The notes beneath the pieces are model-generated. The model did no database searches. It worked only from the letters and a program-made list of their open reading frames with translations, and was not told the DNA's origin. A stretch of DNA of 64,000 bases, taken from an uncultured Caproiciproducens sp. Its GTDB lineage: Bacteria > Bacillota > Clostridia > Oscillospirales > Acutalibacteraceae. Shown here piece after piece: positions 1,738-23,215 of this stretch (position 1 is the stretch's first letter; every line of letters starts with the position of its first letter). The position numbers and the translations under genes are program-made. The stretch covers positions 1,378,661 to 1,442,660 of the forward strand of contig NZ_OY761810.1 of assembly GCF_963664915.1 (NCBI RefSeq). Direction: 5' to 3'.

Positions 1738-3105
1738 ATGGAAATTAAAAAAAATGATGTTATAGATTTGGACATAACGGGTTATGCCGCGGAGGGAAAC
1801 GGCGTTGGCCGTTATAAAGATATTGCCGTGTTTGTGCCGCTCGCGGCTGCGGGGGACAAGCTCCGTGTAAAAATACTGAAAACGGCAAAGACCTATGCCT
1901 TTGGCCGGATCGATAAAATAGTAACCGCGTCAAAAGATCGGGTACCTCTTGACTGCGCCCAGTTTGCCCAGTGCGGGGGCTGCGTATACCGGCACATTAG
2001 TTATCAGACGGAACTGAAAGCAAAGCAGCAGCGTGTGCGGGATGCCATTGAGCGCATCGGCGGCTTTCATGATATTGAATTAAAGCCGATTATAGGCGCG
2101 AAAGACCCCGATCATTACCGCAACAAGACGCAGCTTCCAATCGGACGCGGCCCGGGAAACGAAGTGCGAATGGGTTTTTTCGCGAGCCACAGCCACCGGA
2201 TTATACAATGTTCGGAATGTCTTTTGCAGCCCGATGAATTTACGGCGGCGATGAGCGCTTTTCAGGAGTGGGCCCGTCAGAGCGGCGAAGATATTTACGA
2301 CGAGGAAACCGGCAAGGGCAGGTTAAGGCATTTGTATCTGCGCCGCGCGGGTGCGACCGGCGAAGCGATGGTTTGTGTGGTCGTCAACGGAAACGGAGTA
2401 CACTTTGAGCAGGAACTGGTGGAAATTTTAAAGAAGAGCGTACCGGGCTTGAAGAGTGTGATCATCAATGTGAACAGGGAACAGACGAATGTGGTTCTCG
2501 GTAAAAAATGCCGCACCGTATGGGGCGAAAACTATATTGCAGATACCCTATGCGGGCTGAATTTTCACATATCCCCGATGTCTTTTTATCAGGTCAACCG
2601 CGAACAGGCGGAGCGGCTTTACACGATTGCGGGCGAATATGCCGGTCTGACCGGGAACGAAACCCTGCTTGACCTTTACTGCGGAACCGGTACAATCGGC
2701 CTTTCCATGGCAAAGGACGCCGCTCATGTGATCGGTGTGGAAATTGTTGAACAGGCGGTAGAGGATGCAAAAAAGAATGCGGAGCTGAATGAGATTACGA
2801 ATGCAGAATTTCTGTGCGCCGATGCAGCCAAGGCCGCGTCCATGCTGAAGAATCGCGGAGTCCGTCCCGACGTGGTTGTGCTTGACCCGCCGCGCAAAGG
2901 CTGCGACGCTTCATTAATTGACACAGTTGCCGATATGACCCCGCAGCGTATCGTCTATGTTTCCTGCGACCCGGCGACCCTTGCCCGTGACCTGAAGATT
3001 TTTTCACAAAAAGGTTATGCTCCGAAAACCATAACGCCAGTAGACATGTTTCCAAGAACCGCACATGTGGAGACGGTTGTATTGATGTCACGGGTAAAAG
3101 ACTGA
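1738..3105 (+). CDS. rlmCD: 23S rRNA (uracil-5-)-methyltransferase RlmCD/RumA family
   Basis: This 455-residue protein methylates C5 of conserved uridines in 23S rRNA using S-adenosylmethionine. It has an N-terminal TRAM RNA-binding domain (about residues 1-60), then cysteines at 73, 79 and 82 (CAQFAQCGGC) plus a later Cys (CSEC) for a 4Fe-4S cluster. The SAM-binding loop is LLDLYCGTGTIGL, followed by LDPPRKGC and the catalytic VSCDPATLARDL. Length is normal for the family. The ATG at 1738 follows a GGGGGAG ribosome-binding site. The last codons spell HVETVVLMSRVKD. Two later copies of a similar tail (12968 and 23056) indicate that this 3' end was the landing site for mobile elements. Confidence 0.95.
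   Translation: MEIKKNDVIDLDITGYAAEGNGVGRYKDIAVFVPLAAAGDKLRVKILKTAKTYAFGRIDKIVTASKDRVPLDCAQFAQCGGCVYRHISYQTELKAKQQRVRDAIERIGGFHDIELKPIIGAKDPDHYRNKTQLPIGRGPGNEVRMGFFASHSHRIIQCSECLLQPDEFTAAMSAFQEWARQSGEDIYDEETGKGRLRHLYLRRAGATGEAMVCVVVNGNGVHFEQELVEILKKSVPGLKSVIINVNREQTNVVLGKKCRTVWGENYIADTLCGLNFHISPMSFYQVNREQAERLYTIAGEYAGLTGNETLLDLYCGTGTIGLSMAKDAAHVIGVEIVEQAVEDAKKNAELNEITNAEFLCADAAKAASMLKNRGVRPDVVVLDPPRKGCDASLIDTVADMTPQRIVYVSCDPATLARDLKIFSQKGYAPKTITPVDMFPRTAHVETVVLMSRVKD
3067..3105 (+). other. Probable chromosomal attachment site (3' end of rlmCD)
   Basis: The final codons of rlmCD encode VETVVLMSR. The 160-bp repeats at 12968 and 23056 begin with codons for VETVILMTR at about 75% nucleotide identity, including a shared TGATG-N-CACG. 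The 3' end of rRNA uracil methyltransferase genes is a known insertion site for some serine-recombinase conjugative elements, so this is the likely left attachment site. The exact crossover cannot be fixed by eye. Confidence 0.55.
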
Positions 3106-3213
3106 ATGTATAGAAAACCCAGTAAATAAGCCATTTCTGTGGTTTTGCAATTTTCAAGCTGTACACTCAAAACGTGATTTTACCCGTGCATGGAAATCAG
3201 TCTATCGGTTTGG

Positions 3214-3345
3214 ATTCCGTTCACGAGATAACAGGATTGATAACGGGCTTTCACGAGAGTACAGGATAGATGTTTTGCGTTTTTGGGGCTTGGTGAGAGA
3301 ACAGGATAGATGTTTTTTGAGTTTTGGCGTGTGCACGGGAACAGG
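3214..3345 (+). repeat. Imperfect tandem repeats of about 40 bp
   Basis: The word ACAGGATAGATGTTTT recurs at 3261 and 3301, with weaker relatives starting at 3231 and 3341, giving a 30-40 bp period with G/T-rich spacers. A similar block, also preceded by TTCCGTTC, lies at 19945-20015. No reading frame spans it. It may be the subterminal repeats of a decayed element or a protein-binding array. Confidence 0.6.
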
Positions 3346-3386
3346 TCGGGATGTAAGCAGATTGAATGAGGTGAGAATTTTGCTAC

Positions 3387-3794
3387 ATGACTAAGGAAGA
3401 AAAACAAGAAATTTGTGATAATATTTTTAATTACATTACAAAGTAACTGTCCGAATGGTTGGATGATCATATTTTTGTAAAAATATCTATGGAGCAATTA
3501 GGAGAGTTATATTATATTCATACTTTAAATACTGTAGATAACGCTACCAAAGATTTGCTGAATACTGTAATAAGGACTATTTCTCCAAAGAATGTTGAAT
3601 GCAAAAGTCAGACAGTTTATTATTGTGCACTATGCTATATTATACATATTAAAAAGCTGCTTTCACAAAAGTTGATAGATGTTGAAAAAGAATATAACGA
3701 AATATTCGTACAGAAATACACTTTGCTTTTGACTAGGTTTCAGTCTGAGGGTAAATACAATACAAAGTCAATTACTTCAAGTAAAAGCAGATAG
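3387..3794 (+). pseudogene. Small unknown gene upstream of jetA, interrupted by a stop
   Basis: Reading from ATG 3387 gives MTKEEKQEICDNIFNYITK, then a TAA at 3444-3446. The same frame continues as LSEWLDDHIFVKISMEQ to a TAG at 3792-3794, 135 codons in all. The part after the stop can start at ATG 3459 (111 residues) but has no good ribosome-binding site. It is AT-rich, helical and charged, with no recognised domain. It touches the earliest possible jetA start, so it may be transcribed with the Wadjet genes. Either a nonsense mutation split the gene or the downstream start is used. Confidence 0.5.
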
Positions 3795-3877
3795 TGATGC
3801 GATACGGATTTAAGGTTTTAAGAAAAGTAATTTGCTCAGATCGTTGGATTAGACTGGCAAAGAAAAGAGATGATAAG

Positions 3878-5284
3878 ATGGCTGTTTTTGATGTGTTGCC
3901 CAGCAATTTTTTCTCGGTTTTGGTGTCAACAAATCGGGAGATATATGTAGAAGCTCTGCTGCTTTTGCATCAAATGTTTCAATTTGAACTAAACATCAAG
4001 GTGGATGATTATATTTCTGCTCTCATCTCCTTGCAGGAAGATAAAGATTTTACGCCTGAAGAAGATGATGAAGTTGCCGAAGGAAGTTTGACATTTAGCG
4101 GAAAAGCCAGACTGATACTCGGCCGTTTTATCAAAACCGGATGGGTGGAAAAAGAGTTTTTAGATGGCTCTTTTATTGAAATCATTACACCACAACCCTA
4201 CGCAATTCCAGTAATGAAGCTTCTAGGTGAATTAGGCAACGGAGGAGCACAAGAATATAACTCTCTTGTCTTTGCAACTTATTCCGCTCTAAAACAAGCC
4301 GAATCAGATCATACGGATCAGATGTATGAGGCTGTGCTATCTGCAAAAACAAATACGGAACAATTGCAATACCAGCTCCGTAGCCTTTACCACGGAATTC
4401 GCAGCTTCCTTAGGGGGATTGAAAGCCAAAGTGGTATAAATGATTTGCTTCAGAACCATTTTGAAAGCTACAAGAAAATGTCTGACCGAATTTATCACCC
4501 AATCAAAACCATGGATTCTATCCATCGGTATATGGTTCCGATTCAAAATCTCCTGATGGATGTTCTTGGCGACGCTGCTCTGATGCAAACCATGTGCGAT
4601 CGGGCCATGACCGTAAAAAAATATGAACATCCCGAGGAGGCACAGGGGGATATTGTTACGGCAATTAACTATGTGCTGGATGCCTATCAGTCAGTGGGTG
4701 GCATTATCACAGAAATCGACCGCAAACATAGTACCTACACCAAAAGCTCCATTGAGAAAATTCGATACCTGATGACAGCCGATCAAACCATTAAGGGAAA
4801 GCTGGCGCAGCTTCTGAAAGCCTATGCCGCAAGTGATGCAACGCAGCAGGAAACGATAAGCGCTATGATGGAACGGAATATCAATGTCAACCGTCAGGAG
4901 TTTTTTGACGGAAAATCCCTCTACCATAAAAGTGTCAGAAGCCGACGAATTGATACCATACCCTTGGAGGTGGGTTCCTCAGAGGAGCTGTCTAATGATT
5001 TGATGAGCGGCATGATGGAACAGATTAAAAACGGCTATCCGGTTTTCAGAGTCTGTGCTTATGTGGACAAACTATTTACACATGGAAACAGTGAAATTAC
5101 CAGTGAAAATATTACAATAGATGAAGATTCGGATTTCATATTACTACTGTTAGCCGTCTTGCGAGCCAACGATTCAGAGATAACCTATACAGTCGAACTT
5201 GCCGACGGAACAATGGAACGAAACGGCTATCGCATTCCGCACATGATAATCCGAAAAAAGGAGGAGTTGCACCATGTGGAGTGA
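3878..5284 (+). CDS. jetA: Wadjet defence protein JetA (DUF5716-type), kleisin subunit
   Basis: First gene of a four-gene Wadjet operon. JetA bridges the JetC SMC heads and carries JetB. The N-terminus FDVLPSNFFSVLVSTNREIY is characteristic of the JetA class formerly called DUF5716; I recall that class from type III Wadjet systems, which is less certain than the assignment to Wadjet. Start choice: the frame is open from GTG 3794, but family proteins begin at about MAVFDVLP, so ATG 3878 (468 residues) is preferred. The weak GA-rich site before it leaves some doubt. The middle region has long amphipathic helices. The stop lies 11 bases inside jetB, indicating coupled translation. Confidence 0.85.
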   Translation: MAVFDVLPSNFFSVLVSTNREIYVEALLLLHQMFQFELNIKVDDYISALISLQEDKDFTPEEDDEVAEGSLTFSGKARLILGRFIKTGWVEKEFLDGSFIEIITPQPYAIPVMKLLGELGNGGAQEYNSLVFATYSALKQAESDHTDQMYEAVLSAKTNTEQLQYQLRSLYHGIRSFLRGIESQSGINDLLQNHFESYKKMSDRIYHPIKTMDSIHRYMVPIQNLLMDVLGDAALMQTMCDRAMTVKKYEHPEEAQGDIVTAINYVLDAYQSVGGIITEIDRKHSTYTKSSIEKIRYLMTADQTIKGKLAQLLKAYAASDATQQETISAMMERNINVNRQEFFDGKSLYHKSVRSRRIDTIPLEVGSSEELSNDLMSGMMEQIKNGYPVFRVCAYVDKLFTHGNSEITSENITIDEDSDFILLLLAVLRANDSEITYTVELADGTMERNGYRIPHMIIRKKEELHHVE

Positions 5285-5915
5285 AGAATATGAAAAACTG
5301 TCTTCTTATGAAAAGGGCGAGTTTCGACGTCTGAGCAACTATCTCCTGTCCCATACCTATCTTGTCCGCTATGAGTATCAGAGCAGCCAGCAGATGACAA
5401 TGCCAAGCAGCGATTATACGATGGTTTCAAGGTTTTTTCCTGTGATGCAGGAGTACTTTTCTGTCTCAGGCTGGAAGCTAGAGAAAGAGGACAACTACGG
5501 TGTCATGTCCCTCATCAACATATATGACCATAATCGCCTGCGCGTGGACCGATTTACTACGCTGTTTCTTTATACTTGCCGTCTTATCTACGAGGAGCAT
5601 AGAGAGGAATCCGGGCAATTTTATACGGTGCGAACGGATACGCAAACCGTCGTGGAAAAGATGCGAATGCTGGGGCTTTTGGAAAAGGGAAAAACCAGCC
5701 AGAAAGAGCGCCTAGATGCTCAACGAACCTTGGTACACTATAATGTCTTACAAAAAATGGACAGTACGTGGAGCAACGAGGGAAATCAGCTTCTCATTTT
5801 ACCTTCTATCCTGTCAATGGTGTCCAATCGGGGAATCAACGATATGATGATAGAATTGGAAGAAATGAAAAACAACGGGGCACAGAATGATGACGAAACG
5901 GAGGAGTCTGTATGA
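5274..5915 (+). CDS. jetB: Wadjet defence protein JetB (DUF4194-type), kite subunit
   Basis: This 213-residue protein matches the JetB/DUF4194 family: small winged-helix kite subunits that bind the JetA kleisin, comparable to MukE. Visible family features include the N-terminal helix YEKLSSYEKGEFRRLSNYLL, a region around YFSVSGWKLE, and the segment VEKMRMLGLLEKGK. The ATG at 5274 follows a full AAAGGAGG site inside the end of jetA. The 3' end overlaps jetC by four bases (ATGA). Size and order fit Wadjet operons. Confidence 0.88.
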   Translation: MWSEEYEKLSSYEKGEFRRLSNYLLSHTYLVRYEYQSSQQMTMPSSDYTMVSRFFPVMQEYFSVSGWKLEKEDNYGVMSLINIYDHNRLRVDRFTTLFLYTCRLIYEEHREESGQFYTVRTDTQTVVEKMRMLGLLEKGKTSQKERLDAQRTLVHYNVLQKMDSTWSNEGNQLLILPSILSMVSNRGINDMMIELEEMKNNGAQNDDETEESV

Positions 5916-8900
5916 AAAAACTAACTAGGCTCCTTCTGATACATTGGCATTACTTTACCCATGAGACAGTATCCTTTGAGACACTGAACTTTCTCACTGG
6001 CAAAAATGCCTCCGGAAAGTCCACAATTATTGATGCGATGCAGCTTGTGCTCTTGGGAGATACCAGTGGTAGTTATTTCAATAAAGCTGCCAGCGGAAAA
6101 GGTAATCGTTCCTTAATGGGCTATCTCAAGGGCGAATTGGGGGATGATGAGGACTCCGGCTTTAAGTATTTGCGAAACGGTAGATTTACCAGCTATATCG
6201 CACTGGAGTTTTTCGACGATGAAAAGGACAGGTATTTTACCGGTGGCTGCTGCTTTGATGTGTATTCCGAGAACGATATGCAAAAGCTGTTTTTCTTGTA
6301 CGATGGCGGATTTCCACAAAACGAATTCGTGGAAAATAAAATTCCATGGGAGATTCGAAAGCTACGAGAATTTCTGAAGGAGAAATATTCGAACCATAAG
6401 ACTACCGATGTAGGGCGAGAATTTCGCACGGCATTATACGGCAAAATGGGCGGATTGCGTGATCGATTTGGCTCTTTACTGAAAAAAGCGGTTTCTTTTA
6501 ATCCCAACGTAGATATTCAGGATTTCATATCAGAGTTTGTCTGCGACACACAGCAAACGGTCGATGTCAGTCAAATGCAGGAAAACATTCGCAGCTATAA
6601 GCGATTAGAGGAAGAAGCGAATGTCCTACAAGATAAAATTGCACAATTAGAGAAAATAATGGCGGAACACACCGCTTTTTTGCATGCAAAACAGGATGAA
6701 CAGGTCTATGCTTATCTGATTGATCGTGCACAACATGATATGAAAGTAGCCGAACTGGAAAGAGCCCAGAAAAATGTGGAGGAACTGATCTCAAAACTTC
6801 GTGAGGCGGAATCAAACATTGCAGCTCAGAGCAGTCGCCTTTCCAAGATGCAGGATGAGTATAATCAGCTACACGCAAGACTGATTAACGATGAAGCGGA
6901 ACAAGCAATTAAGCTACTGGAATCTGAAATTGCTGCAAAAGAGGCTCAAATCAATGGCATTCTTGCAGCCTTCGAGAAATCAACTGCTCGGTTGTCACAA
7001 TATGCTTCAAACTGGAAGCGATGTGTGACCGGTATGGCAGAGAAGCTAATGTCTCTTGAAGCAGGTAGCCTGGTCGCAATGCTTGATTCACGGATTCATG
7101 ATATATGCGAGGAAAGCGCCAATTTTTTAGGGCAAGCGGAGTGTTTGGCAACTATTGATGATAAATCCATCCTTTCTGTTGGTGAAAACGGACTGCACGA
7201 ATTATCTTTACTTGTGCAGACACTCAGCGCCCATACAATCGAGCTAGGTTCACGTATTGTAGACGAGCAGCAACGGTTAGCTACATGGAGAAGCGCTTTG
7301 CAGCAAGAACAAAAATCCTTGGAAAGCGGAATTTATCAATTTCCGCGGGATGCTTTAGATTTAAAAGCCGCTATTGCGTCTCGACTTCGCACTCTTGCAA
7401 AGCAAGAGGTAAAGGTAATCATTGTCGCAGAAGCGGCAGAAATTGAAAATGATCGTTGGCGAAATGTCATTGAAGGCTATTTAAATACGCAGAAATATTA
7501 TATTATCGTTCCTGACCAATATTTCAAGGACGCATTGCGTGTTTTAGACGCGATGAAACGTGACCGAAAACTATATGGTACCGGCCTTGTTGATATCGAA
7601 AAACTGAGACGTAAAAACCCTTCTATTGACCCAGGGAGTCTTGCTGAGGAGATACAAACCACCAATTCGGATGTAAGAGTGTTTTTGAATTTCACTTTGG
7701 GCTGGGTACATAAATGCGAAACGGTGAATGAGTTGCGTCGTTTTAATACAGCAGTCACCGATGATGGAATGCTGTATCAAAACTATGTTGTCAGAGCTAT
7801 GAATCCAGAACGCTGGGCAAAACCTGCTATTGGACAGAGTGCAATTCATAGGCGACTTGATGCTGTAAAACTTGAGTTTACTACGCTCACCAATCAAATA
7901 TCTGCCTGCGCCATAGCAAAAGCCGGTATTGATTTGTGCAGTAAGATTTCCATTCCCGGAGAAAGCGATATCCAGCAGGCAGTGTCATTTGCAAGCGAAA
8001 AGCAAACTATTCCTGCCTTGGAGCAAGATCTTCTGAGATTGCGCACTAGTCGAGCAGCTATTGACACAAGTGCCATTGATGCACTTAAAAATCACCTTGT
8101 CCAATTGGATAGCAGCATTAAGAGTCTTGAAGCAGACTTGAGAACGCAGAATAAAGAACAGGGAATTTTGGAAGAGCGTCTACGGGTATACCAAGAGGAA
8201 ACCATTCCGAAACTGGAAGATGAAATTCAGATGTTTCTACAGCTCATCGCTCAAAAGTATGATTCCGAATGGGTTGAAAGCACAGGTGGATTACGTTATC
8301 AGCGTGAGCTTTCAACAAGACAGAGTGCGGAGGATATCTACAGAGCATTCCCGCGTGAACTTGCTCGCTCAACAAATACCAGAAATTCCTCATGGAGCAA
8401 TTTGGTTGAATTGCGTCAGGATTACAATCGTAAATACATCATGGGGTACGATACAAAGGCTGAGGCAAATGATGCTTATGATGATGCGTGGTTAGAACTC
8501 TCCGAAAATAAGCTGCCGGAGTATTTAGTCCGCATTGAGGATACGCGCAAAAAAGCATTCGAGCAATTTCGGGAGGATTTTTTGAGCCGTTTGGAAAACA
8601 ACATCAGGGATGCAGATACGCAGATCATTGGACTCAACGCGGCAATTAAGGGCAGCTTCTTTGGCGAGGAAAGCTTCCGTTTCAAAATCATTCCCAGACT
8701 AGAATATAAGCGTTATTATGACATGCTTGTCGATCCCATGAAAATGGAGGGCGGCTATAATCTTTTTTCAGAACAGTTTAATCTGAAATATAAGGATGAA
8801 ATTGCCGAGCTCTTTGCAATCATCACAAATGAGGATGGCGGTGGAAAATCGCAGGGAAAGAGCGATTATGACAAACGCGTTCAAATGTTCACTGACTTTA

Positions 8901-9307
8901 GAACATATCTCACCTTTGATTTGGAATCTGTGAATCGAGATGGCGAATCCCAGCGTCTGTCTAAAACAATGGGCAAAAAATCCGGTGGTGAAACACAGAC
9001 CCCGTTCTATGTTGCAGTACTGGCATCCTTCGCTCAGCTATACCGCACCGGACGAGATAAAACGCAAAACACGGCCCGTCTTATCATATTTGACGAAGCC
9101 TTTTCCAAGATGGACGGAGAGCGAATTATCCGTAGCGTACAGCTGTTGCGTCAGTTCCATTTTCAGGTCATTCTCTCGGCCCCTACCGAAAAAGTCGGTG
9201 ACATTGGCACCTTGGTAGACAGAAATCTCTGTGTGCTAAGAGAAGGGAAACATACCAGCGTCAAGGCGTTTGACCCCAGAAAATCGGAGTGGATTGAAAA
9301 TGAATGA
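5912..9307 (+). CDS. jetC: Wadjet defence protein JetC, SMC/MukB-like ATPase
   Basis: The 1131-residue SMC ATPase of the complex. Walker A (GKNASGKST) lies at residues 30-38, with long coiled coils between. The ABC signature SGGETQ is near residue 1024, and Walker B LIIFDEAFSKMD near 1057-1068. The middle hinge-like segment includes a block around VIIVAEAAEIENDRWRNVIE, where the SbcC/COG4913-type family has its hinge. JetABC is known to extrude DNA loops and detect closed circular DNA such as plasmids. All ATPase motifs are intact, so the gene looks functional. It overlaps jetD by eight bases. Confidence 0.95.
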   Translation: MKKLTRLLLIHWHYFTHETVSFETLNFLTGKNASGKSTIIDAMQLVLLGDTSGSYFNKAASGKGNRSLMGYLKGELGDDEDSGFKYLRNGRFTSYIALEFFDDEKDRYFTGGCCFDVYSENDMQKLFFLYDGGFPQNEFVENKIPWEIRKLREFLKEKYSNHKTTDVGREFRTALYGKMGGLRDRFGSLLKKAVSFNPNVDIQDFISEFVCDTQQTVDVSQMQENIRSYKRLEEEANVLQDKIAQLEKIMAEHTAFLHAKQDEQVYAYLIDRAQHDMKVAELERAQKNVEELISKLREAESNIAAQSSRLSKMQDEYNQLHARLINDEAEQAIKLLESEIAAKEAQINGILAAFEKSTARLSQYASNWKRCVTGMAEKLMSLEAGSLVAMLDSRIHDICEESANFLGQAECLATIDDKSILSVGENGLHELSLLVQTLSAHTIELGSRIVDEQQRLATWRSALQQEQKSLESGIYQFPRDALDLKAAIASRLRTLAKQEVKVIIVAEAAEIENDRWRNVIEGYLNTQKYYIIVPDQYFKDALRVLDAMKRDRKLYGTGLVDIEKLRRKNPSIDPGSLAEEIQTTNSDVRVFLNFTLGWVHKCETVNELRRFNTAVTDDGMLYQNYVVRAMNPERWAKPAIGQSAIHRRLDAVKLEFTTLTNQISACAIAKAGIDLCSKISIPGESDIQQAVSFASEKQTIPALEQDLLRLRTSRAAIDTSAIDALKNHLVQLDSSIKSLEADLRTQNKEQGILEERLRVYQEETIPKLEDEIQMFLQLIAQKYDSEWVESTGGLRYQRELSTRQSAEDIYRAFPRELARSTNTRNSSWSNLVELRQDYNRKYIMGYDTKAEANDAYDDAWLELSENKLPEYLVRIEDTRKKAFEQFREDFLSRLENNIRDADTQIIGLNAAIKGSFFGEESFRFKIIPRLEYKRYYDMLVDPMKMEGGYNLFSEQFNLKYKDEIAELFAIITNEDGGGKSQGKSDYDKRVQMFTDFRTYLTFDLESVNRDGESQRLSKTMGKKSGGETQTPFYVAVLASFAQLYRTGRDKTQNTARLIIFDEAFSKMDGERIIRSVQLLRQFHFQVILSAPTEKVGDIGTLVDRNLCVLREGKHTSVKAFDPRKSEWIENE

Positions 9308-10544
9308 TGAGATGGAGCGAAAACTTATCACGGTACTTCTGAACAAATATGAGCGCAGCAGCTTTTTTCGTTCGGGGGCAGTACCAACAAAGAGGATTCT
9401 GCTGAAGCTGTATGAGAACGGGAAATGCGAGTTCTCGGATTACAACATTGAAAACAGTGAGCAGCGAATCCGCGTCAATGAATGTGTACAGGCATTGGCG
9501 CAAAAAGGATTTATCCGTTTTGAATGGATGAAGGGCGAAGAAAATCATATCATGTCAAAAGTCTGGCTGAATATGGAGGACTTGCAAAATGTCTATTGTT
9601 TTGCACATAGGCAGCCTCAAAGTGATTATCTTTCTAACGTTGAAGCAGAGTTGGCGGAGTGTATGGAGTCCATTCGATTGCAATGGATAAAAGACTATTT
9701 GCAGGATACCTGTGGGTATATCCGGCAAAAGCGGAAACTCCATGTATTGGTTCCTGACAATGCGCAGGATCGGAAATCACTGCTACAAGCATTGCGGTAT
9801 ATAGATGCTAATAAGGACAACGAACTGCTGAAACGAGTGTTCTCTGTTCGCTGCTTTGGTGATAGTAAGCATTTCGAACGAGTTGTCGAGACGCGCTTGC
9901 TTCGCATTCTGAAAAAGTATTTGGACTGTGATGACCAAATAACAGATGAACAGCTATTGAATCAAATTGGTATCGTAAAATACCCAGAGCAATTCGAGTT
10001 CTGTGGGCCAATTTCTCTTAACTTTCCAGATGGAAAATATCTGGACTTCTCAAATCTAAGCGGCGGCAGCACAGTTTACGGACAAGACATTGCAGCGGCG
10101 CAAATTACTCTTTCAAAAGGAGTGCGCTGCATTTTATCCATTGAAAATAAAGCAAATTATTTTGATTACATCAGTAAACAACGCAAGCCTGATGAGATCG
10201 TTATCTATCACGGAGGACAATACAGTCCGTCTAAGCAAATATTTCTACATGCCGTTGCACACGCATCTGAACAGTTACCGTGGTATCATTGGGGCGATAT
10301 TGATTACGGAGGGTTCAGCATGCTCGCAAGGCTTCGCCGTGAAATTAACTCCAGCACACAGCCTTACCGAATGAATAAGCAGGAATTAATCACATTCGCG
10401 GCGTTTACAACACCCTTCTCGCCTGAGTATTCGCAAAAATTGCTTGAATTGACGGCAAGGACTGAGCTTAGAGACTGTTCGGAGTGTCTTGCCTATATGC
10501 TGGAACGCTGTATGCGGTTAGAACAGGAAGCGTTGTTGGAATAA
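9300..10544 (+). CDS. jetD: Wadjet defence protein JetD, Toprim-type nuclease
   Basis: The 414-residue nuclease that cuts DNA when JetABC stalls on a small circle. The C-terminal Toprim-like domain (DUF2220 region) keeps its acidic residues: Glu282 in LSIENKANY, and Asp333 and Asp335 in HWGDIDYGGFSML. The N-terminal third is a winged-helix-like arm (DUF3322 region). The start is placed at ATG 9300 (MNDEMERK), inside the jetC stop region after CGGAGTGG; an in-frame ATG at 9270 would force a longer overlap. All four Wadjet genes are intact. Confidence 0.92.
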   Translation: MNDEMERKLITVLLNKYERSSFFRSGAVPTKRILLKLYENGKCEFSDYNIENSEQRIRVNECVQALAQKGFIRFEWMKGEENHIMSKVWLNMEDLQNVYCFAHRQPQSDYLSNVEAELAECMESIRLQWIKDYLQDTCGYIRQKRKLHVLVPDNAQDRKSLLQALRYIDANKDNELLKRVFSVRCFGDSKHFERVVETRLLRILKKYLDCDDQITDEQLLNQIGIVKYPEQFEFCGPISLNFPDGKYLDFSNLSGGSTVYGQDIAAAQITLSKGVRCILSIENKANYFDYISKQRKPDEIVIYHGGQYSPSKQIFLHAVAHASEQLPWYHWGDIDYGGFSMLARLRREINSSTQPYRMNKQELITFAAFTTPFSPEYSQKLLELTARTELRDCSECLAYMLERCMRLEQEALLE

Positions 10545-10973: not shown

Positions 10974-11824
10974 TTATTCATCCACATCTACCGTCACGTC
11001 GGACTTGAATTCCACCGTGAATTTGTTATCGTAGATGGTGACTTTTTCAATCAGCCGCCGGACAAGCGGCTCGTCGTATTCCGTCAGGGCGGTAGACTGT
11101 TCTTGCAGGAAAGTGCCCATGTCGGCGATGCGCTTTTTCTGTTCGTCTCGCCCGGCACTTTCCATCTGAAGCTTCTGCTTATCCTCACGCAGGCGGTAAA
11201 TCTCCTCGACGACGTCCTCATAATCGCTTCGGGCACCGGTTCGCTTCAAAAGCTCCTCTTGCAGTTCTGCCAGCCGCTTGTCGACATCGGCAAGAGGCTG
11301 GCTTTTTTCGGATTCCAGAACGGCTTCGATGTTTTTTTGCAGGGTGGCGAGGAAGGTGTCCTTGTCACACCATGTTTGATTGATGGCGGTAACCAGCACA
11401 TGCTCAATCTGGCTTTCCGGCACGGTGCGGGTGTCGCAGAACAGCCCGGTGTTTTCAAGACGGCTGATGCACCGCCAGACGATGGACTTTTTGCCACGGT
11501 TGTACCAATGAATCCTGCGGTAAAACTCTCCGCAGCAGCCGCAGAAAACGATGTTTGATAGGCAGTGACTGCTGCTAAACACCCGGTTCTTTCCGTTTGG
11601 GCTTTTATGGATTAAACGCCGGCGCACCAGTTCTTCCTGCACCTGCATGAAAATCTCGCGTGGAATGATAGCTTCGTGACTGTTTTCCACGTAATACTGC
11701 GGCACAAGGCCGTTGTTCTTGACCCGCTGTTTTGTGAGGAAGTCTACGGTGTAGGTTTTCTGTAAAAGGGCGTCGCCGATGTATTTTTCATTCCGCAGGA
11801 TCGTGCTGATGTTGCCCCATATGG
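10974..11824 (-). pseudogene. Large serine recombinase, C-terminal part only
   Basis: The minus strand encodes WGNISTILRNEKYIGDALLQ through the recombinase and zinc-ribbon region (VFCGCCGEFYRRIHW ... CISRLENTGLFC), a coiled coil, and the C-terminal tail to 10974. These are the recombinase and zinc-beta-ribbon domains of large serine recombinases, which move Tn1549/Tn4451-type elements. The N-terminal catalytic domain with the nucleophilic serine is absent. The frame stops making sense at 11824, where an oppositely oriented recombinase begins. The protein cannot catalyse strand exchange. Confidence 0.85.
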
Positions 11825-13016: not shown

Positions 13017-13127
13017 AACACTGAAACCACAATATGTTGTGGTTTTGGAGAAAAAAATGGGCAAAAATTAGGCTAAAAAATGCCCGATTTTTGCCCTGAT
13101 TTTTAGGGGAAAATATAGATGACATAG
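12968..13127 (+). repeat. 160-bp direct repeat, copy A (attachment-site-like)
   Basis: Equal in length to 23056-23215 and identical at about 152 of 160 positions. It begins with codons for VETVILMTRCGKNDK and a stop, then a hairpin with arms AAACCACAA/TTGTGGTTT, then an A/T-rich stretch ending GATGACATAG. The coding part resembles the 3' end of rlmCD (3067-3105). It is best read as an element end plus the restored methyltransferase tail. Confidence 0.8.
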
Positions 13128-13150
13128 GGTAATGTAATGATAACAGATTT

Positions 13151-14281: not shown

Positions 14282-14408
14282 CCCAGAGGCACTAATTATT
14301 GATGTCTCTGTTTTCATATAAAACCAAAAAAAACTTAATAAATGCCATCGGGTAAACAATCAAGAGGTTATGTTCTTCGTTACTGAAAAACATAGCCTCT
14401 TTTTTTGT
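14282..14408 (+). promoter_or_regulatory. Two-hairpin leader element, copy 1
   Basis: Hairpin P1 (CAGAGGCA 14284-14291 with TGTCTCTG 14303-14310) is followed by a conserved linker (AATGCCATCGGGTAAACAAT). Hairpin P2 has arms 14362-14374 and 14389-14401 and runs into a T-tract. It resembles an attenuator ahead of the gene starting at GTG 14444. Copies lie at 24223 and 28275. Confidence 0.75.
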
Positions 14409-14443
14409 TGTCCGATTTGCAGAAAAAGAAAGGACTGATTAAA

Positions 14444-15040
14444 GTGATTACAAGATTTATGAGAGATACACCTCTCGCCACTATAGAAATAGAAATGCAA
14501 CTTATTCCCGGCTTTACGCCTCGTGCCTACGGAACATTCCGAGGCCAGCAAAGATATGTGAATCCAAACCCAATTCAGTATGAAGAATTGCTTAGGCTGT
14601 TCCTCAAAGAGATAGAGTTACAGGCATTTGCTCTGCGAGTGCAAAGAATCATAGAGGTGAACCAAATGCTTTTTAGAAATGCAGAGCATAAAAAGAGATT
14701 TCAAAGTATCTGTAAAAGTGGTCTGTTTCCGAAGCTAGAAGAAAGCTACGGATATGCAGCCGCTATTTTTTTACTCTCTGCAGATGCGTTTGTTTGGAGT
14801 AAGACAAAAAGTTGTGTAGACAGCCAACTCATTCATTTTGAAGCTATTCGCATTCATGGTGTGGATTTAGATGGATATGCCATCTTTCATATGGCAAAGG
14901 AACTTTACTCTGGAAAAGAACACATTACTGTTTCTGAACTCAGTGATCCGGAGCTGATAAACGATAAGCTATTACGACTTATCGTCAATGCCTTTTTAGT
15001 GAGGAGATATGGAATCAATGTAATCAAAGGAGGGCGATAA
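14444..15040 (+). CDS. Conserved Tn1549-type element protein, unknown function
   Basis: A 198-residue protein beginning ITRFMRDTPLATIEIEMQLI. The GTG start at 14444 is set by comparison with the truncated homologue at 24395, which begins with ATG at the same place behind the same leader and AAAGAAAGGACTGA context. Proteins of this type accompany relaxase and conjugation genes in Tn1549-like elements of Clostridia. I recall no function. It is predicted soluble, mainly helical. It is 2 bases upstream of the next gene, so they form an operon. Confidence 0.75.
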   Translation: MITRFMRDTPLATIEIEMQLIPGFTPRAYGTFRGQQRYVNPNPIQYEELLRLFLKEIELQAFALRVQRIIEVNQMLFRNAEHKKRFQSICKSGLFPKLEESYGYAAAIFLLSADAFVWSKTKSCVDSQLIHFEAIRIHGVDLDGYAIFHMAKELYSGKEHITVSELSDPELINDKLLRLIVNAFLVRRYGINVIKGGR

Positions 15041-15042
15041 CA

Positions 15043-15558
15043 ATGGAAAAACAAGAACTGCAAACACTGCGGCTGTGGAGTCCCCTATTCCCAAAGATTT
15101 ATCGTAAAAACGAATGGGGTGATACCGAATATGAACCAGAGGATATGGATGCTACTGAAATAGTGGAATATCAAGAGGAAATCCTAGCTGCTATTGAACG
15201 AGTGAAACTCCAAAATGAAGGTGAGCGTGGTTTGGCTTTTTACCTCGATAATGATGTTCTAAAAGGAAAAGTGTACAGTATTAATCCCGCTGTTGAGGAA
15301 TGGGATGGCAAACTGTGGGGTGTTACAGAAGTACAGTCGCATGGCGAACTGACACAGGCTGAGCTTGACGAGGTTATTTCAGAACTGACAGGGCAGTTTT
15401 CAGACGGTTGGGGTGAGGGCTTCGAGCAGCGACCAATTGATACTCCCGATGGAGAGTTGTATCTTAGCTTTTGGGATTCGGGAAATGAATTTTATATTAA
15501 ACCAGAAGAACAATTGAAAAACCAACAGTCACAAGGCTTCGGTATGACAATGGGATAA
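15043..15558 (+). CDS. Conserved element-borne hypothetical protein
   Basis: This 171-residue acidic protein starts 2 bases after the previous stop with AGGAGGGCGATAAC as ribosome-binding site. It opens with LQTLRLWSPLFPKIYRKNEW and has a conserved-looking block VISELTGQFSDGWGEGFEQR, followed by LYLSFWDSGNEFYI. It looks like a domain found in Tn1549-type element proteins, but I cannot name a function. No signal peptide or membrane segment is visible. Confidence 0.75.
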   Translation: MEKQELQTLRLWSPLFPKIYRKNEWGDTEYEPEDMDATEIVEYQEEILAAIERVKLQNEGERGLAFYLDNDVLKGKVYSINPAVEEWDGKLWGVTEVQSHGELTQAELDEVISELTGQFSDGWGEGFEQRPIDTPDGELYLSFWDSGNEFYIKPEEQLKNQQSQGFGMTMG

Positions 15559-15570
15559 CATTTGTAAATA

Positions 15571-15592: not shown

Positions 15593-15593
15593 T

Positions 15594-15812: not shown

Positions 15813-15883
15813 CGGGAATCGAGTAAAGCATACTACTTCATAACAATTATAACACAAAGTAATAAAAAGACAAGAAACTTGAC

Positions 15884-16753
15884 TATGCCCTTCTGCAAAA
15901 GACCTATACCGTGGACTTTCTTACAAAAAAACGAGTAAAGAATCAGGGCATTGTCCCACAGTATTACATACAGGATAATCATGAAGCTATTATTCCGAAA
16001 GAACTTTACTACCGGGTGCAGGAGGAAAAGTCCAGGAGGGCGAGCTTAAATAAATCCGCAGCTACCAGACGGGCAAAAAGGGAGAAAAGCAAGTACAGCT
16101 CCAAGTACGCCCTTTCCGATATAATGATCTGCAGGGAATGCGGACAGCCCTACCGCAGACAGGTCTGGTCGAAAAACAGTCAAAAAAGTGCCGTGTGGCG
16201 GTGCGAAAACCGACTGAAGAACGGGACAAAGCACTGTAAGAACTCCCCTACTCTCAAAGAAGAAGTTCTAAATGAAGCCGTCATGACCGCTATTAATAGC
16301 GTTGTCGAAAATCGGGGCAATTTTGTAGGCGCCTTCCGGGAGAATGTAGTTCAGGTCATTGGAAGCTACTCGACAAGGAATGTACCGACCGAATTTGACG
16401 ACCAGATCACAAAGCTTCAAGGTGATATGCTAGCTCTGATTGAGGAAAATGCAAAAAAAGGTTCGGCTACCGATGATTTTGACGAGCAGTATCAAAAAAT
16501 TGCTGAGCAGATCAAAGGACTTAAGCAAAATAAGTTAGATATTATAAAGGAACAAAAGCAGGCTGCGAATTTCCAGCAGAGAGTCAATGACATGGATACC
16601 TGCCTGAAGAAAACCACCTGTGTGGTGCGGGAGTTTGACAATGATCTGGTACGGCGGCTACTGCAAACTATCAAGGTTATCAATGAGGATATGATTGAAA
16701 TACAGTTCAAATCAGGAATTGTTATGAAACAGAGGGTTTCCTGCTATGACTGA
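15884..16753 (+). pseudogene. Third large serine recombinase, C-terminal part only
   Basis: Starting abruptly at YALLQKTYTVDFLTKKRV (15884), this frame encodes the recombinase domain, zinc ribbon (CRECGQPYRRQVW ... CENRLKNGTKHC), coiled coil and C-terminus. It is homologous to, but clearly diverged from, the leftward remnant at 10974-11824, and lies in the opposite orientation. No catalytic domain precedes it; 15858-15883 is noncoding. Like the other two it cannot excise anything. Confidence 0.85.
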
Positions 16754-16859
16754 CGGTGATGCGGCAGTAGCCAAAGGTTAATCAAGCAAGATATTATATG
16801 TGACGAATAAGGGCCAGCAGAAGCTGACTAGATCGTGGTTCCTGCTGAACATCATAACA

Positions 16860-16911
16860 CTGGTAAGAATAAAATCATCAGACGATGAGCTGAGAGTTTT
16901 ATTCTTACCAG
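16860..16911. repeat. 15-bp perfect inverted repeat
   Basis: Arms 16860-16874 (CTGGTAAGAATAAAA) and 16897-16911 are perfect complements separated by 22 bases. There is no downstream T-run on plus. It lies between the recombinase remnant and the fic promoter, and could be an element end, a recombinase-binding site or a terminator read from the right. Confidence 0.6.
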
Positions 16912-16957
16912 CAATTTAAATAACGGAATGATATAGCAAAATAGTCCGAGAAATGTC

Positions 16958-16987
16958 TTGCATATTATTCCGAATTGCGTGTATAAT
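16958..16987 (+). promoter_or_regulatory. Promoter of fic gene
   Basis: TTGCAT (16958-16963) and TATAAT (16982-16987) are 18 bases apart, with a GAGGAGG ribosome-binding site about 22 bases downstream. Confidence 0.6.
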
Positions 16988-17023
16988 AGAAATATCGGAA
17001 CAATATATGAGGAGGTGGCTCTT

Positions 17024-19370: not shown

Positions 19371-19450
19371 AATGCCTCCACCAAGGCTGGACCACGCTTT
19401 GTGGTAATCCGAATTGACTTTAAAAAGAAATTTTTTCAGGAATATATCCT

Positions 19451-19489
19451 GATGCCAAGGGGGTACCAGCTTCAAGCGGCATCTTTTTT
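19451..19489 (+). terminator. Intrinsic terminator
   Basis: GATGCC (19451-19456) and GGCATC (19478-19483) pair around a G-rich loop and are followed by six T. It ends transcription from the methyltransferase/HNH gene. A related GGCATCTTTTTT block precedes repeat copy B at about 23031-23042. Confidence 0.6.
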
Positions 19490-19553
19490 GACCGTTCAAG
19501 GCATACAGAATGTATCTGTCTGCTTGAACATTCAGTCCAGGAGAAGATATAAC

Positions 19554-19847
19554 ATGAATCAGTTCTTTAAACAGGTATATGACATTGTAGAGCAGATACC
19601 TTATGGGATGGTGGTTTCATATGGTCAGATTGCGCACATGCTGGGACGGCCCCATGCGGCGCGAGAGGTTGGGTGGGCCATGAGATGCTGCCCCGATGGT
19701 TTGCCTTGGCAAAGGGTGGTCACGAAAGATGGTACGATTGCGGGCGGTATTTATGCGGATATGCGCAGAGACATTCTTGAAACCGAAGGGGTAATATTCT
19801 TGCCTGATGGCCGTGTCAATATGGATTTATGCCGTTGGTTCGGTTAG
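19554..19847 (+). CDS. Alkyltransferase-like protein (ATL), MGMT family
   Basis: A 97-residue protein from ATG 19554 (site AGGAGAAG). It matches the DNA-binding domain of O6-alkylguanine-DNA alkyltransferases: YGMVVSYGQIAHMLGRPHAAREVGWAM. At the active site, where repair enzymes have PCHR, this protein reads PWQR, with tryptophan replacing the acceptor cysteine. That defines ATL proteins, which flag alkylated bases for excision repair rather than repairing them. Base composition is closer to the chromosome than to the flanking AT-rich cargo, so it may be a host gene trapped between insertions. Confidence 0.85.
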   Translation: MNQFFKQVYDIVEQIPYGMVVSYGQIAHMLGRPHAAREVGWAMRCCPDGLPWQRVVTKDGTIAGGIYADMRRDILETEGVIFLPDGRVNMDLCRWFG

Positions 19848-19944
19848 GCATGGTGCAAAATCCATATTGGTAGCAAGATTTGGCGTCAAGATCTGACTGG
19901 GTTCAAGTGGTGTTTTTTGACCGTTCACAAATAAGTCCATAGGG

Positions 19945-20015
19945 GCAGATTCCGTTCGCGAGAGGATAGGATAGATGTTTTGGATTTTTGGGTAGTGTTG
20001 AGTATACAGGATAGG
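19945..20015 (+). repeat. Second block of 40-bp-type repeats
   Basis: TTCCGTTCGCGAGAGG, then ATAGGATAGATGTTTTGG, and another ACAGGATAG about 40 bases later, matching the block at 3214-3345. The two blocks bracket the segment containing Wadjet, the recombinase remnants, Fic and ATL. Confidence 0.55.
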
Positions 20016-20057
20016 CATTAAATAAAAATGTGAAATAAAAGTATCGGTGGTGACGTT

Positions 20058-21104
20058 ATGGAAGACAATGATAAAAAATTGAAGAAACCTTTACAAATAA
20101 GAAATAGCACGGCTGAATTTTTAATATTTACTTCACAAGCAAACGAGAACACAATCGAGGTTCGTGTTGAGGATGAAACAGTCTGGCTTACACAAAAATT
20201 AATTGCCGAGCTGTTTGGGGTAGATGTAAGAACAATAAACGATCACTTGAAAAACATCTATGCTGAAGGTGAATTAGAGGAAGAAGCAACTATCCGGAAA
20301 AACCGGATAGTTCAAAAAGAGGGAAACAGAGAAGTAGGCAGAGATGTTTTATTTTATAATCTTGATGCGATCATTTCCGTCGGTTACCGCGTGAATTCAT
20401 TAAGGGCAACACAGTTCAGACAATGGGCAACAGGAGTCCTACGGAATTTTTCAATTCGCGGATATGTGTTGGATAAAGAAAGATTAAAAAATGGTACTTT
20501 CTTAAATGAAGAATATTTCGATCATTTACTTGAAGAAATCAGAGAAATACGAGCCAGTGAAAGAAAGTTCTATCAAAAAATTGCTGACATTTATGCCACT
20601 GCTTTAGACTATAATCCACAAACAAAAATAACAAAGAATTTCTTTAAGACTGTTCAAAACAAGTTGCATTTTGCAATTCATGGCAATACTGCTGCAGAGG
20701 TTATCTACAATAGAGCCGATAGTACTAAGGAACATATGGGATTAACAAGTTGGGAAAATGCACCGCAAGGCAAAATTGTTAAAAGCGATGTTTCTATAGC
20801 AAAGAACTACCTCACAGAAAAAGAAATCAAATCTTTAGACAGGTTTGTGACAATGTACCTTGATTATGCAGAAAGCCAGGCAGAGAGAAATATCCCTATG
20901 ACGATGGAAGATTGGGCTAAGAGGCTGAATGCATTTCTACAATTTAACGAAAAGGATATATTGGAGAATGCAGGGAAAGTAACCGCGGCTATTGCAAAAG
21001 AATTTGCAGAAAGTGAATTTGAAAAATACCGTATTAATCAGGACAAACTTTTTCAATCAGATTTTGATAGATTGACTGACAGCATTAAGAACGAGGAAGA
21101 GTAA
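20058..21104 (+). CDS. RhuM family protein
   Basis: A 348-residue protein matching the RhuM family over its whole length: N-terminal EVRVEDETVWLTQKLIAELF, then GVDVRTINDHLKNIY, then NLDAIISVGYRVNSLRATQFR and QWATGVLRNFSIRGY. The N-terminal part resembles phage antirepressor/KilA-N-type helix-turn-helix domains; the C-terminal part is helical and Fic/Doc-associated in relatives. RhuM proteins are common mobile-element cargo with no settled biochemical role. The GTGGTGACGTT context before ATG 20058 is a modest ribosome-binding site. It stands alone between the repeat block and the hydrolase operon. Confidence 0.85.
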   Translation: MEDNDKKLKKPLQIRNSTAEFLIFTSQANENTIEVRVEDETVWLTQKLIAELFGVDVRTINDHLKNIYAEGELEEEATIRKNRIVQKEGNREVGRDVLFYNLDAIISVGYRVNSLRATQFRQWATGVLRNFSIRGYVLDKERLKNGTFLNEEYFDHLLEEIREIRASERKFYQKIADIYATALDYNPQTKITKNFFKTVQNKLHFAIHGNTAAEVIYNRADSTKEHMGLTSWENAPQGKIVKSDVSIAKNYLTEKEIKSLDRFVTMYLDYAESQAERNIPMTMEDWAKRLNAFLQFNEKDILENAGKVTAAIAKEFAESEFEKYRINQDKLFQSDFDRLTDSIKNEEE

Positions 21105-21336
21105 GTGTTTGACAATTGTGAATGTAAACTGCATCTGATATAATATAATAGAAGTCATTAAGCACATGCTGAAAGTGCATTTCAATGAAAAATCCCCAAA
21201 ATCACCCTGCCTCCAAGGGGCTACCAGCTCCATACGACATCATTATCACAGCCACAAGGCATACAGAGGTAATATGTCTACTGGAAAAATAGTGATATCC
21301 TTTTTACAATATTAAAGTGCTTATATTATGATGGAA

Positions 21337-22371: not shown

Positions 22372-22372
22372 T

Positions 22373-22876
22373 TTATTTTCCTCCATCAGGGACTAAAAAG
22401 GTTGTCAGCTGATAACAATCCCCGTCACCTGCCATGTATTTCCTCAGAAGAGCTTCCGTTTCTTCGGTGAACTTATTTATTTCTTCTTTTTTAATATTTA
22501 TTATGGTTGTGCTAAATTTTGATAGCTGCAGATTATCCTGAGCCACTACTGGTGTGTGCTCCGCCAGTTTATGATGAACATAAGAAAAAAACACGGCATA
22601 GGCGGCAGTTAAATAGGCTTCAACAGACCCATCCTCAAGGCTCATTTTCTCCATCGAAAAATTCAGCCCATAAGTTGCTTCAATCGCTCCCTTGATTTTT
22701 CTTTCAGATACCTTTCTAATTAAAGATGCTTTTTCCAATATTTTAATACATCTGTACATGGCTGCTTGGGGGATATCCGGCAGCTTCTCCAGTAATTCTT
22801 TTACCGAGGCCTCCCTTTCGCCGAGGGCTGCGACAATGAGAAACCGATAAGGCTGCAATAAAGCTTTATAGTCCAT
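22373..22876 (-). CDS. Winged-helix transcriptional regulator (ArsR/PadR-like)
   Basis: A 167-residue protein from ATG 22876. The N-terminal winged helix (YKALLQPYRFLIVAAL, then ASVKELLEKLPDIPQAAMYR and CIKILEKASLIRKV) is ArsR/PadR-like; the C-terminal half may bind a ligand or dimerise. It is first in an operon with the alpha/beta-hydrolase. A 46-bp perfect palindrome lies 20 bases upstream of its start, positioned to be its own operator. Longer upstream frames run through noncoding repeat and are not used. Confidence 0.75.
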   Translation of the reverse strand: MDYKALLQPYRFLIVAALGEREASVKELLEKLPDIPQAAMYRCIKILEKASLIRKVSERKIKGAIEATYGLNFSMEKMSLEDGSVEAYLTAAYAVFFSYVHHKLAEHTPVVAQDNLQLSKFSTTIINIKKEEINKFTEETEALLRKYMAGDGDCYQLTTFLVPDGGK

Positions 22877-22895
22877 CTGAGACCTCAATTCTATA

Positions 22896-22941
22896 TTACA
22901 ATCTATACTATTATCAATATTGATAATAGTATAGATTGTAA
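22896..22941. promoter_or_regulatory. 46-bp perfect palindromic operator
   Basis: Two 23-base arms with no spacer are perfectly complementary around the centre at 22918/22919 (CAATATTG). It lies directly upstream of the regulator start at 22876 and probably overlaps that promoter. The perfection over 46 bp is unusual; it suggests cooperative binding of two dimers of the encoded regulator. Confidence 0.75.
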
Positions 22942-23055
22942 ATGTCCGTATGTCAATAGAGGCATACTCAAAGTTTAATAAGTTGAGGCTTCCCGCAATT
23001 AACAGCCGCCAAGGCCTCACTGCGCTCAACAGGCATCTTTTTTGTACACTCAAGG

Positions 23056-23215
23056 CGTTGAAACTGTGATTCTGATGACACGTTGTGGTAAAAACGATAA
23101 ATAAGCCACTCAAACCACAATATGTTGTGGTTTTGGAGCGAAAAATGGGCAAAAATTAGGCTAAAAAATGCCCTGTTTTTGCCCTGATTTTTAGGGGAAA
23201 ATATAGATGACATAG
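23056..23215 (+). repeat. 160-bp direct repeat, copy B (attachment-site-like)
   Basis: The mate of 12968-13127, with about eight mismatches and no gaps. It keeps the recombinase-like tail codons VETVILMTRCGKNDK, the stop and the AAACCACAA/TTGTGGTTT hairpin, but no recombinase body precedes it. Its left flank TGTACACTCAA also occurs at 3165, just beyond rlmCD, strengthening the link to the rlmCD site. Confidence 0.8.

Follow-up and report, generated by a model that had tools for sequence, protein, structure and literature searches.

The window analyzed here is a stretch of 64,000 nucleotides from an uncultured Caproiciproducens sp. (assembly GCF_963664915.1, contig NZ_OY761810.1, positions 1,378,661 to 1,442,660). 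Near its left end lies rlmCD, a gene of the 23S rRNA uracil methyltransferase family (1738-3105, plus strand), which appears to be the target gene of the insertions described below. A native-type tail, HVETVVLMSRVKD, closes this gene at 3064-3105. Further copies of an rlmCD-type tail occur downstream, and three of them directly follow a sequence of about 50 bp termed the right end (RE). As far as sequence can tell, the region is probably a stack of elements and small cassettes that were inserted at the 3' end of rlmCD by large serine recombinases, swapped its tail, and have since decayed.

Both strands of 16 region sets (407 kb) were scanned for rlmCD-type tails. The scan gave 22 matches, compared with 3 in one single-base shuffle; many of the 22 are the ends of rlmCD-family genes themselves, and one, on the minus strand of the same-genus relative G007, looks like chance. 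Five matches lie in the window, all on the plus strand, at 3064 (rlmCD), 12966 (copy A), 19502, 21260, and 23054 (copy B). The tails at 19502 and 21260 had been overlooked in the initial annotation. Tail C (19502-19552, HTECICLLEHSVQEKI and a stop codon) follows an RE at 19445-19501, which scores 67.8 bits with the RE model R1 (match 19445-19513). Tail D (21260-21292, HTEVICLLEK and a stop codon) follows a variant RE at 21204-21259 (49.5 bits, model match 21204-21271), and copy B follows an RE at 23001-23055 (47.0 bits, model match 23001-23063). The genes between these junctions look like cargo and also lie on the plus strand. One is an alkyltransferase-like gene (ATL) with the DNA-binding domain of MGMT (19554-19847), whose position between RE junctions marks it as cargo and corrects the initial annotation. 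The other is a RhuM-family gene (20058-21104; PADLOC model PDC-S05). Between the two, at 19880-20014 on the same strand, a decayed, tail-less RE-like sequence is followed by a remnant of the native rlmCD flank, with 19955-20014 being 80% identical to 3250-3309.

Copies A and B constitute a direct repeat (D1; 12968-13136 and 23056-23224, plus strand) with 93% identity over 169 nt and 95% over 160 nt, ungapped, just as the initial annotation had described two tandem repeats with an rlmCD-like tail. Each copy is a left end of the type that we call LE-alpha. Copy A forms the 3' end of a truncated serine recombinase (11844-13016, plus strand, recA type in our scripts), which ends in the rlmCD-like tail TVETVILMTRCGKNDK. 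Copy B, with the sequence GVETVILMTRCGKNDK and the tail (G)VETVILMTRCGKNDK before a stop codon, has no recombinase attached; the open reading frame (ORF) and domain scans agree with the earlier description of both copies. A Pfam scan found the Recombinase and Zn-ribbon domains in 11844-13016 and no Resolvase domain, so this ORF is not an intact integrase of the kind carried by rumA-type integrative and conjugative elements (ICEs). Its C-terminus, TVETVILM, has the xVETV tail of rumA-type integrases, and its position about 9 kb behind rlmCD is the location expected of them. A second module common to both copies occupies 14293-14405 and 24242-24354 (96% identity). On the first side it extends over 14293-14505 (plus strand, repeats D2 and D4) and includes the start of an ORF at 14405-15040; the second copy (24242-24456, plus strand, parts 24242-24354 and 24371-24456) is truncated. 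Because of this second shared module, we propose that the two LE-alpha units of the window were close relatives. The 169-nt repeat has exactly two matches in the 3.13-Mb genome, namely copies A and B. With a 201-nt query, one more and weaker match appeared near 92.9 kb (70% identity over 109 nt); this fragment is itself the C-terminus of a recombinase with a tail (84% over 250 nt). At this locus (L051; G000 contig 1, about 92,889-93,136), a decayed recombinase end is fused to LE-alpha-like sequence, and no rlmCD-like ORF stood out in the 15 kb covered there.

An 11-base flank, TGTACACTCAA, had been noted before copy B and again after rlmCD. The second occurrence exists, at 3160-3170 rather than at 3165. 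It belongs to the native rlmCD flank, where the relative G002 has TGTACACTCAG, and the occurrence at 23043-23053 is part of a right-end variant, TTTTTTGTACACTCAAGG, that is also seen in loci L158, L161, and L181. Since one copy is native flank and the other an RE variant, the match is more likely a coincidence.

Related rlmCD loci, a comparison that the initial annotation had suggested, agree with the proposed exchange. The rlmCD tail is native-type in G001, G002, G005, and G006. In Caproiciproducens faecalis (G003), rlmCD ends with HVETVVLMTKCGLDE, a tail of the same family as those of copies A and B, and a displaced native-type tail, HVETVVLMSRVKE, lies 968 bp beyond the end of the gene, preceded by an RE. 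The gene in between is presumably lipoprotein-like. In G007, rlmCD ends with HTEAVCLLEHEKSIDK and a displaced tail, HTECCTLLCHADNK, follows 978 bp on; in G010, the gene ends with HTECCCLLERMSGVENKGV. These loci, G003 in particular with its swapped and displaced tails, support the earlier proposal that elements were inserted repeatedly at the 3' end of the methyltransferase gene, brought variant tails, and later decayed. In two other loci, L043 (G008) and L066 (G083), the rlmCD tail passes into a recombinase 3' end in antisense, which looks like the insertion of an element in reverse orientation. A displaced tail, HVETCVLMSRAKE, is also present at 3912 of L037 (p_G001), 234 bp behind the own tail of a second rlmCD-type paralogue. 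Several same-genus relatives carry this paralogue; no strong match to it was found in the genome of the window. The idea that the repeat of copies A and B stems from a lost second paralogue was dropped once LE-alpha turned up in other genera.

The RE found in front of three window tails (C, D, and B) and of the displaced G003 tail has a consensus of about CCgCCAAGG....ACCAG........GgCATCtTTtTTG.....TCAAGG, with CA following at the junction. A 23-nt core with up to 3 mismatches occurs once in the genome of the window and in 4 of 300 family genomes, this one included, with G109 counted by the match alone. The core match in G006 was rejected as a genuine RE, being an ordinary terminator in appearance. 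A 21-position RE pattern matched 20 stretches in 84,980 named genomes, where about 4 would be expected by chance according to our own rough estimate (not computed by a tool), and it had no matches in viral contigs. All 20 stretches belong to Clostridia in the wide sense. After the pattern, 19 of the 20 continue with H(V/T)E and one with HVG; the E lay outside the searched positions. Model R1, built from 32 right ends, matched 38 of 391 class genomes, the present one included, and 29 of 223 genera at E <= 1e-4. In 50 sources it gave 73 matches, which leave 60 distinct REs once the 3 in the window and 10 repeats from overlapping loci are subtracted. The motif x-x-E follows 49 of the 60, and 41 of these also have at least three hydrophobic residues at positions 5-8, of which residue 5 lies partly within R1 and residues 6-8 lie outside it. 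Among the REs followed by H-x-E, 37 of 45 pass a hydrophobicity and length test; among the 564 H-x-E sites of these loci, which include real tails, 116 do.

REs also keep a consistent position and orientation. In 37 genomes besides the present one there are 92 REs, and rlmCD-family genes were detected in 35 of these genomes. For 36 REs the gene is on the same contig, and 32 of the 36 lie downstream of the nearest rlmCD-family gene, co-oriented with it, at distances of 2.5 to 338 kb. Inspection by eye of an initial 11 named genomes gave 19 sites on contigs carrying an rlmCD-family gene, 17 of which were co-oriented with such a gene and at most 150 kb downstream of it; the two exceptions, G334 at 175822 and G339 at 727790, both match at 3 mismatches.

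That the RE is the 3' part of a coding sequence is a reading we disfavor: codon periodicity is absent from its columns (mean bits 1.14, 1.11, and 1.32 for the three phases), and 1 of 70 junctions is preceded by an open stretch of at least 40 codons in the frame of the tail. A folded site like the attC of integron cassette arrays was also considered and rejected, as no consensus pairs were predicted in the alignment of 32 REs. In 70 junctions picked for a regular AAGG/CA-type end without indels, 102 centers were tried, and the best dyad center falls between the C and the A of the His codon (score 4.01, next best 2.86; mean 0.03, sd 1.1), with TCAA/TTGA-like and GCATC/GATG-like arms. The crossover would then take place at this CA. 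Large serine recombinases use a non-palindromic dinucleotide core centered in an inverted repeat, and such a core would account for the displaced tails all pointing one way. At the integrase-type junction of copy A, the His codon is replaced (ACC GTT GAA), and the crossover is therefore expected slightly further in.

Homologous recombination or gene conversion between rlmCD-like tails could also shuffle cargo, with no site-specific step. The tails are alike and repeated, and copies A and B share about 170 bp at 93%, so that such exchange would be possible. We nevertheless regard it as very unlikely given the junction dyad centered on one dinucleotide, the conservation of the RE across genera next to variable tails, and a segment shared by G664 and G698, members of two genera of one family (loci L204 and L205). 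The two have 11,103 bp in common at 99.06% identity, up to a point no more than 8 bases from the CA of an RE junction, and beyond it tails and flanks differ. Two serine recombinase genes separated by a short ORF belong to the segment, as do genes that we take to resemble aminoglycoside-modifying enzymes. On sequence grounds, it appears to be the strongest evidence for mobility.

Tails form families common to several genera, and the best defined left end is LE-alpha. About 170 bp of it are conserved in 14 aligned sequences from several genera, 12 of which, from other genera, are 62-69% identical to copy B. Its first GTGGT box falls within the tail, an ACCAC box and another GTGGT box come next, and AGATGACAT closes it. 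LE-alpha occurs in other Clostridia genera, once as the live 3' end of rlmCD (G335). The repeat is the left end of an element and not rlmCD DNA of the host, which corrects the initial annotation. Three sequences were kept outside the alignment: G336_18423 (46%) and the G003 rlmCD end (51% to copy B), which are alike mainly in the tail, and G006 (82% over 128 nt), which lies at a contig end.

The inverted ACCAC/GTGGT repeats of the left ends raise another explanation, in which the repeats have no link to mobility and are duplicates of a regulatory or terminator element belonging to rlmCD paralogues. Pairing of the LE-alpha tail with the ACCAC box reaches 95.9% paired cells, a value attained by 1 of 500 shuffles, so that it beats 499 of 500 in paired cells and covariation; one of its seven pairs changes on both sides (3 of 14 sequences). 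Pairing of the ACCAC box with the second GTGGT box was no better than in shuffles. The evidence for an LE-alpha hairpin is thus mixed, and we claim no structure. The G006 repeat is located behind the second rlmCD paralogue, as a regulatory element might be. Even so, the same left end occurs behind REs away from any whole rlmCD gene and directly behind a recombinase, and Rfam had no match in window 3000-26000. We consider a purely regulatory origin very unlikely, the least probable of the explanations discussed here.

Recombinases of different types were traced in other genomes. Homologues of the copy-A recombinase were searched in 200 family genomes (E <= 1e-30) and found in 14, the present one included. 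Of the 13 other genomes, 9 have at least one copy on the contig and strand of an rlmCD-family gene, 8-46 kb downstream of it, a count that includes the second paralogue (G165 and G028). In G083 the homologue and the rlmCD-family gene abut in opposite orientation, which brings the genomes having both on one contig within 46 kb to 10 of 13; in G180, G208, and G218 they are on different contigs. G127 has an additional, closer homologue (73%) on the opposite strand. A tail-like recombinase 3' end is present in 10 of 15 homologue loci (L068, L069, and L073-L080). It was not seen in L067 and L070-L072, and the tail of L066 belongs to the abutting rlmCD.

Recombinases of a second type, r1, were sought with a query from G003 (E <= 1e-60) and found in 26 of the 37 RE genomes. 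Of the 55 r1-type recombinases in 8 chosen genomes of 1-5 contigs that have both, 43 follow an rlmCD gene at a distance of at most 350 kb (6.3 would be expected by position), and 38 of the 43 share its orientation; the genomes vary from 17 of 18 downstream in G364 to 0 of 8 in G514 and G519. A recombinase pair or triplet precedes the RE by 7-21 kb on the same strand in 7 of 8 loci, all chosen because recombinases already showed near their REs. The eighth, a stretch of G524, contains recombinases, some of them broken, and stops short of its REs. For the G003 pair the best curated family is SCCmet_CcrB, with 137-142 bits against a cut-off of 900; the pair therefore does not qualify as CcrA, CcrB, or CcrC. 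Such pairs and triplets near several REs probably catalyze the RE-type insertions.

An alternative with a single mechanism is that single serine integrases with an attachment site at their own 3' end, as in rumA-type ICEs, performed all insertions, and that RE units are internally deleted derivatives that lost their integrase. Copy A is such an integrase end on LE-alpha, its homologues lie behind rlmCD-family genes in many genomes, LE-alpha is common to copy A and to RE-type junctions, and most RE units have no detected recombinase. We judge this account unlikely, although it deserves more weight than the two preceding ones. The RE lacks codon periodicity and does not resemble these integrase 3' ends, even if the frame of the tail is mostly open; the His codon is mostly kept at RE junctions and mostly replaced at integrase ends (xVETV); and the pairs or triplets before the RE in the preselected loci above are recombinases of another type.

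Delimiting units between junctions gave 46, with a median length of 5.1 kb and a range from 374 bp to 24 kb. In 17 of them no more than two ORFs reach 100 amino acids, and one-ORF units of about 1 kb between two junctions exist. Some unit borders are weak, tail-less REs, and decayed junctions may be hidden inside units, as in unit 19502-21259 of the window. Unit ORFs are mostly oriented along rlmCD (206 along, 43 opposite). The one-gene units resemble, as we would name them, a PhzF-type enzyme, an acetyltransferase, and a lipoprotein. Long arrays also occur: Ruminiclostridium cellobioparum (G329) has seven displaced tails within about 45 kb after rlmCD, and Anaerocolumna sedimenticola (G336) has five within 20 kb, about 66 kb behind a partial rlmCD match. 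The units of about 1 kb have attachment (att)-like ends, which would function as att sites, and no integrase of their own, the combination that defines cis-mobilizable elements (CIMEs). A 16-kb unit of G335 was at first taken as a clean autonomous element and then withdrawn, one of its "recombinases" being a C-terminal remnant in another ORF. In the same genome, locus L136 contains an ORF (5851-7221 of the oriented locus) that runs into a recombinase C-terminus; we take it to be S-layer-homology-like.

The stack of elements and cassettes favored here would be formed as follows. Each unit would consist of a left end supplying a replacement tail from the His codon on (HVETVVLM... or HTECICLLE...), cargo, and a right end. 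Insertion of an RE-type unit would cut rlmCD at the CA of the His codon, and a single-integrase element, whose own 3' end mimics the tail, would cut a few bases further on. The incoming tail would re-complete rlmCD and displace the older tail downstream, behind the RE. Repeated rounds would leave a series of RE/tail junctions, presumably with the newest unit nearest the gene. Most units probably move in trans, or in cis with a neighbor. Comparison of the loci establishes that tails were replaced in relatives, that displaced ones stand behind a shared RE, that these features are co-oriented, and that two genera have an almost identical segment ending within 8 bases of a junction. In the window, tails C, D, and B would be the RE/tail junctions of successive units with ATL, RhuM, and a hydrolase/regulator pair as cargo, copy A would mark where a single-integrase element ends and an LE-alpha element is attached, and the remainder would be largely decayed.

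Several observations weigh against this interpretation. In the window, the RE near 19925 has no tail, the CA core is absent at the junction of copy B, and the tail and the 3' flank of rlmCD are both still native-type; this last point may mean that the newest units were lost or that a native tail was regained by recombination. Elsewhere, x-x-E is missing behind 11 of 60 REs, 56 of 92 REs are on contigs with no detected rlmCD gene, and 4 of the 36 others do not fit (G472 at 1091204, G514 twice, and G650). The displaced tail in p_G001 has no RE in front. The RE is open for at least 17 codons in the frame of the tail at 64 of 70 junctions, compared with 32 and 51 in the other frames, and because that frame is mostly open the RE may have had a coding past. 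A serine recombinase was detected in only 7 of 46 units, and 11 of the 37 RE genomes yield none of the r1 type at E <= 1e-60. A supposed recombinase in G335 is a C-terminal remnant in another ORF. Finally, the left border of the 99% segment of G664 and G698 is not at a tail.

The rest of the window includes further features on either side of these junctions. The native 3' flank of rlmCD (3106-3352, plus strand) contains short AGATGT-type repeats and is 83% collinear with G002 up to 3352. The rlmCD tail was left unaligned in a three-way alignment of the rlmCD end, copy A, and copy B. Short AGATGT/AGATGTCA repeats follow native-type tails at 3250-3349 and 19955-20014 and in rlmCD or recombinase flanks of G002, G003, G006, and G116; they look similar to the AGATGACAT that closes LE-alpha. 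A Wadjet operon (JetA1-D1 models, 3794-10541) stands directly after the rlmCD flank, and together with a Fic gene (16958), a methylase-HNH gene (18084), and the RhuM gene (20058) it gives the stretch the look of a defense island. Two other serine recombinase remnants are C-terminal fragments, one of r1 type (10974-11705, minus strand; the r1 gene of G002 has 80% identity to 10975-11815) and one of recC type (15911-16753, plus strand). The ORF at 15043-15558 (plus strand) has relatives in loci of the same kind in G335, G337, G483, and G625. Sugar-transporter, kinase, and regulator stretches at 30-38 kb have 66-92% DNA identity to G008 and G010, where they lie elsewhere behind rlmCD, and may be cargo too. 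In G001, about 22 kb after rlmCD are followed by collinearity with the window from 42476 on, at a stretch that we take to be pyrB-like. The variable stretch of the window is therefore at most about 39 kb, and its right boundary is bracketed rather than pinpointed by this comparison.

The arrangement may be more general. It is conceivable, if somewhat short of likely, that Clostridia possess an integron-like gene capture based on serine recombinases, in which one- to few-gene cassettes share an RE of about 50 bp and have interchangeable left ends, each of them providing an rRNA methyltransferase with a functional C-terminus. The enzyme would stay functional while mostly co-oriented arrays accumulate in islands of up to about 340 kb. 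If so, RE and tail signatures would delimit mobile units one by one in variable islands behind rlmCD/rumA, and tail swaps would record the order of insertion and provide naturally occurring variants of the RlmCD C-terminus. The units contain defense-type, DNA-repair, and transport genes, and resistance-like genes in one segment common to two genera, with many of the names presumed; as a result, this could be a route of gene spread in anaerobes.

Tandem and recombinase-less cassettes also occur among the staphylococcal cassette chromosomes (SCC), and the serial insertion favored here is SCC-like. The arrays described here likewise have tandem cassettes with common attachment ends, most of them recombinase-less (7 of 46 units with a serine recombinase). 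Cassette chromosomes of Staphylococcus and Enterococcus (ECC) are inserted in the 3' region of rlmH by a large serine recombinase pair acting on attachment sites of about 50 bp (PMC6222049). The 3' region of a methyltransferase gene, recombinase pairs, and ends of about 50 bp are thus shared features; the target here is rlmCD and not rlmH, the recombinases are distant CcrA/B/C relatives far below the NCBIfam cut-offs, and a new protein tail is supplied. Streptococcal ICEs reciprocally exchange the 3' parts of rumA and of a single large serine integrase (Ambroset 2016, PMC4701971), in agreement with the initial statement that some serine-recombinase conjugative elements use rum/rlmCD genes. The target gene family is the same, and the truncated recombinase of the window is of that single-integrase type. 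Unlike those ICEs, which have an integrase at the element end, we find mostly integrase-less units with a common RE in co-oriented arrays. The account of Dehalococcoides describes islands stacked in tandem behind ssrA, 16 with CcrB-like integration modules and 15 with none, the latter proposed to be cis-mobilizable, and growth by accretion (PMC3146451). Tandem stacking behind one gene and many units devoid of an integration module recur here, whereas the ssrA islands use a tmRNA gene and a 20-bp direct repeat of its 3' end, and here an rlmCD-type protein tail is swapped in many Clostridia genera. In Listeria, prophages lie between rlmCD and fosX (PMC8386393). No description of the RE, the left-end families, or the cassette arrays behind rlmCD was found in the literature searched, chiefly outside subscription journals. 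While rumA as a target and the swapping of its tail are already known, the RE-bounded, mostly recombinase-less cassette arrays look like a new form of this process. In Dehalobacter, a variable island of 100-400 kb with many nested recombinases is reported at the 3' end of rumA, and its inner elements reportedly could not be delimited (PMC11578063). That island resembles the present one as a variable, recombinase-rich region at the 3' end of a rumA-type gene, and the RE and left ends might serve to delimit its inner elements.

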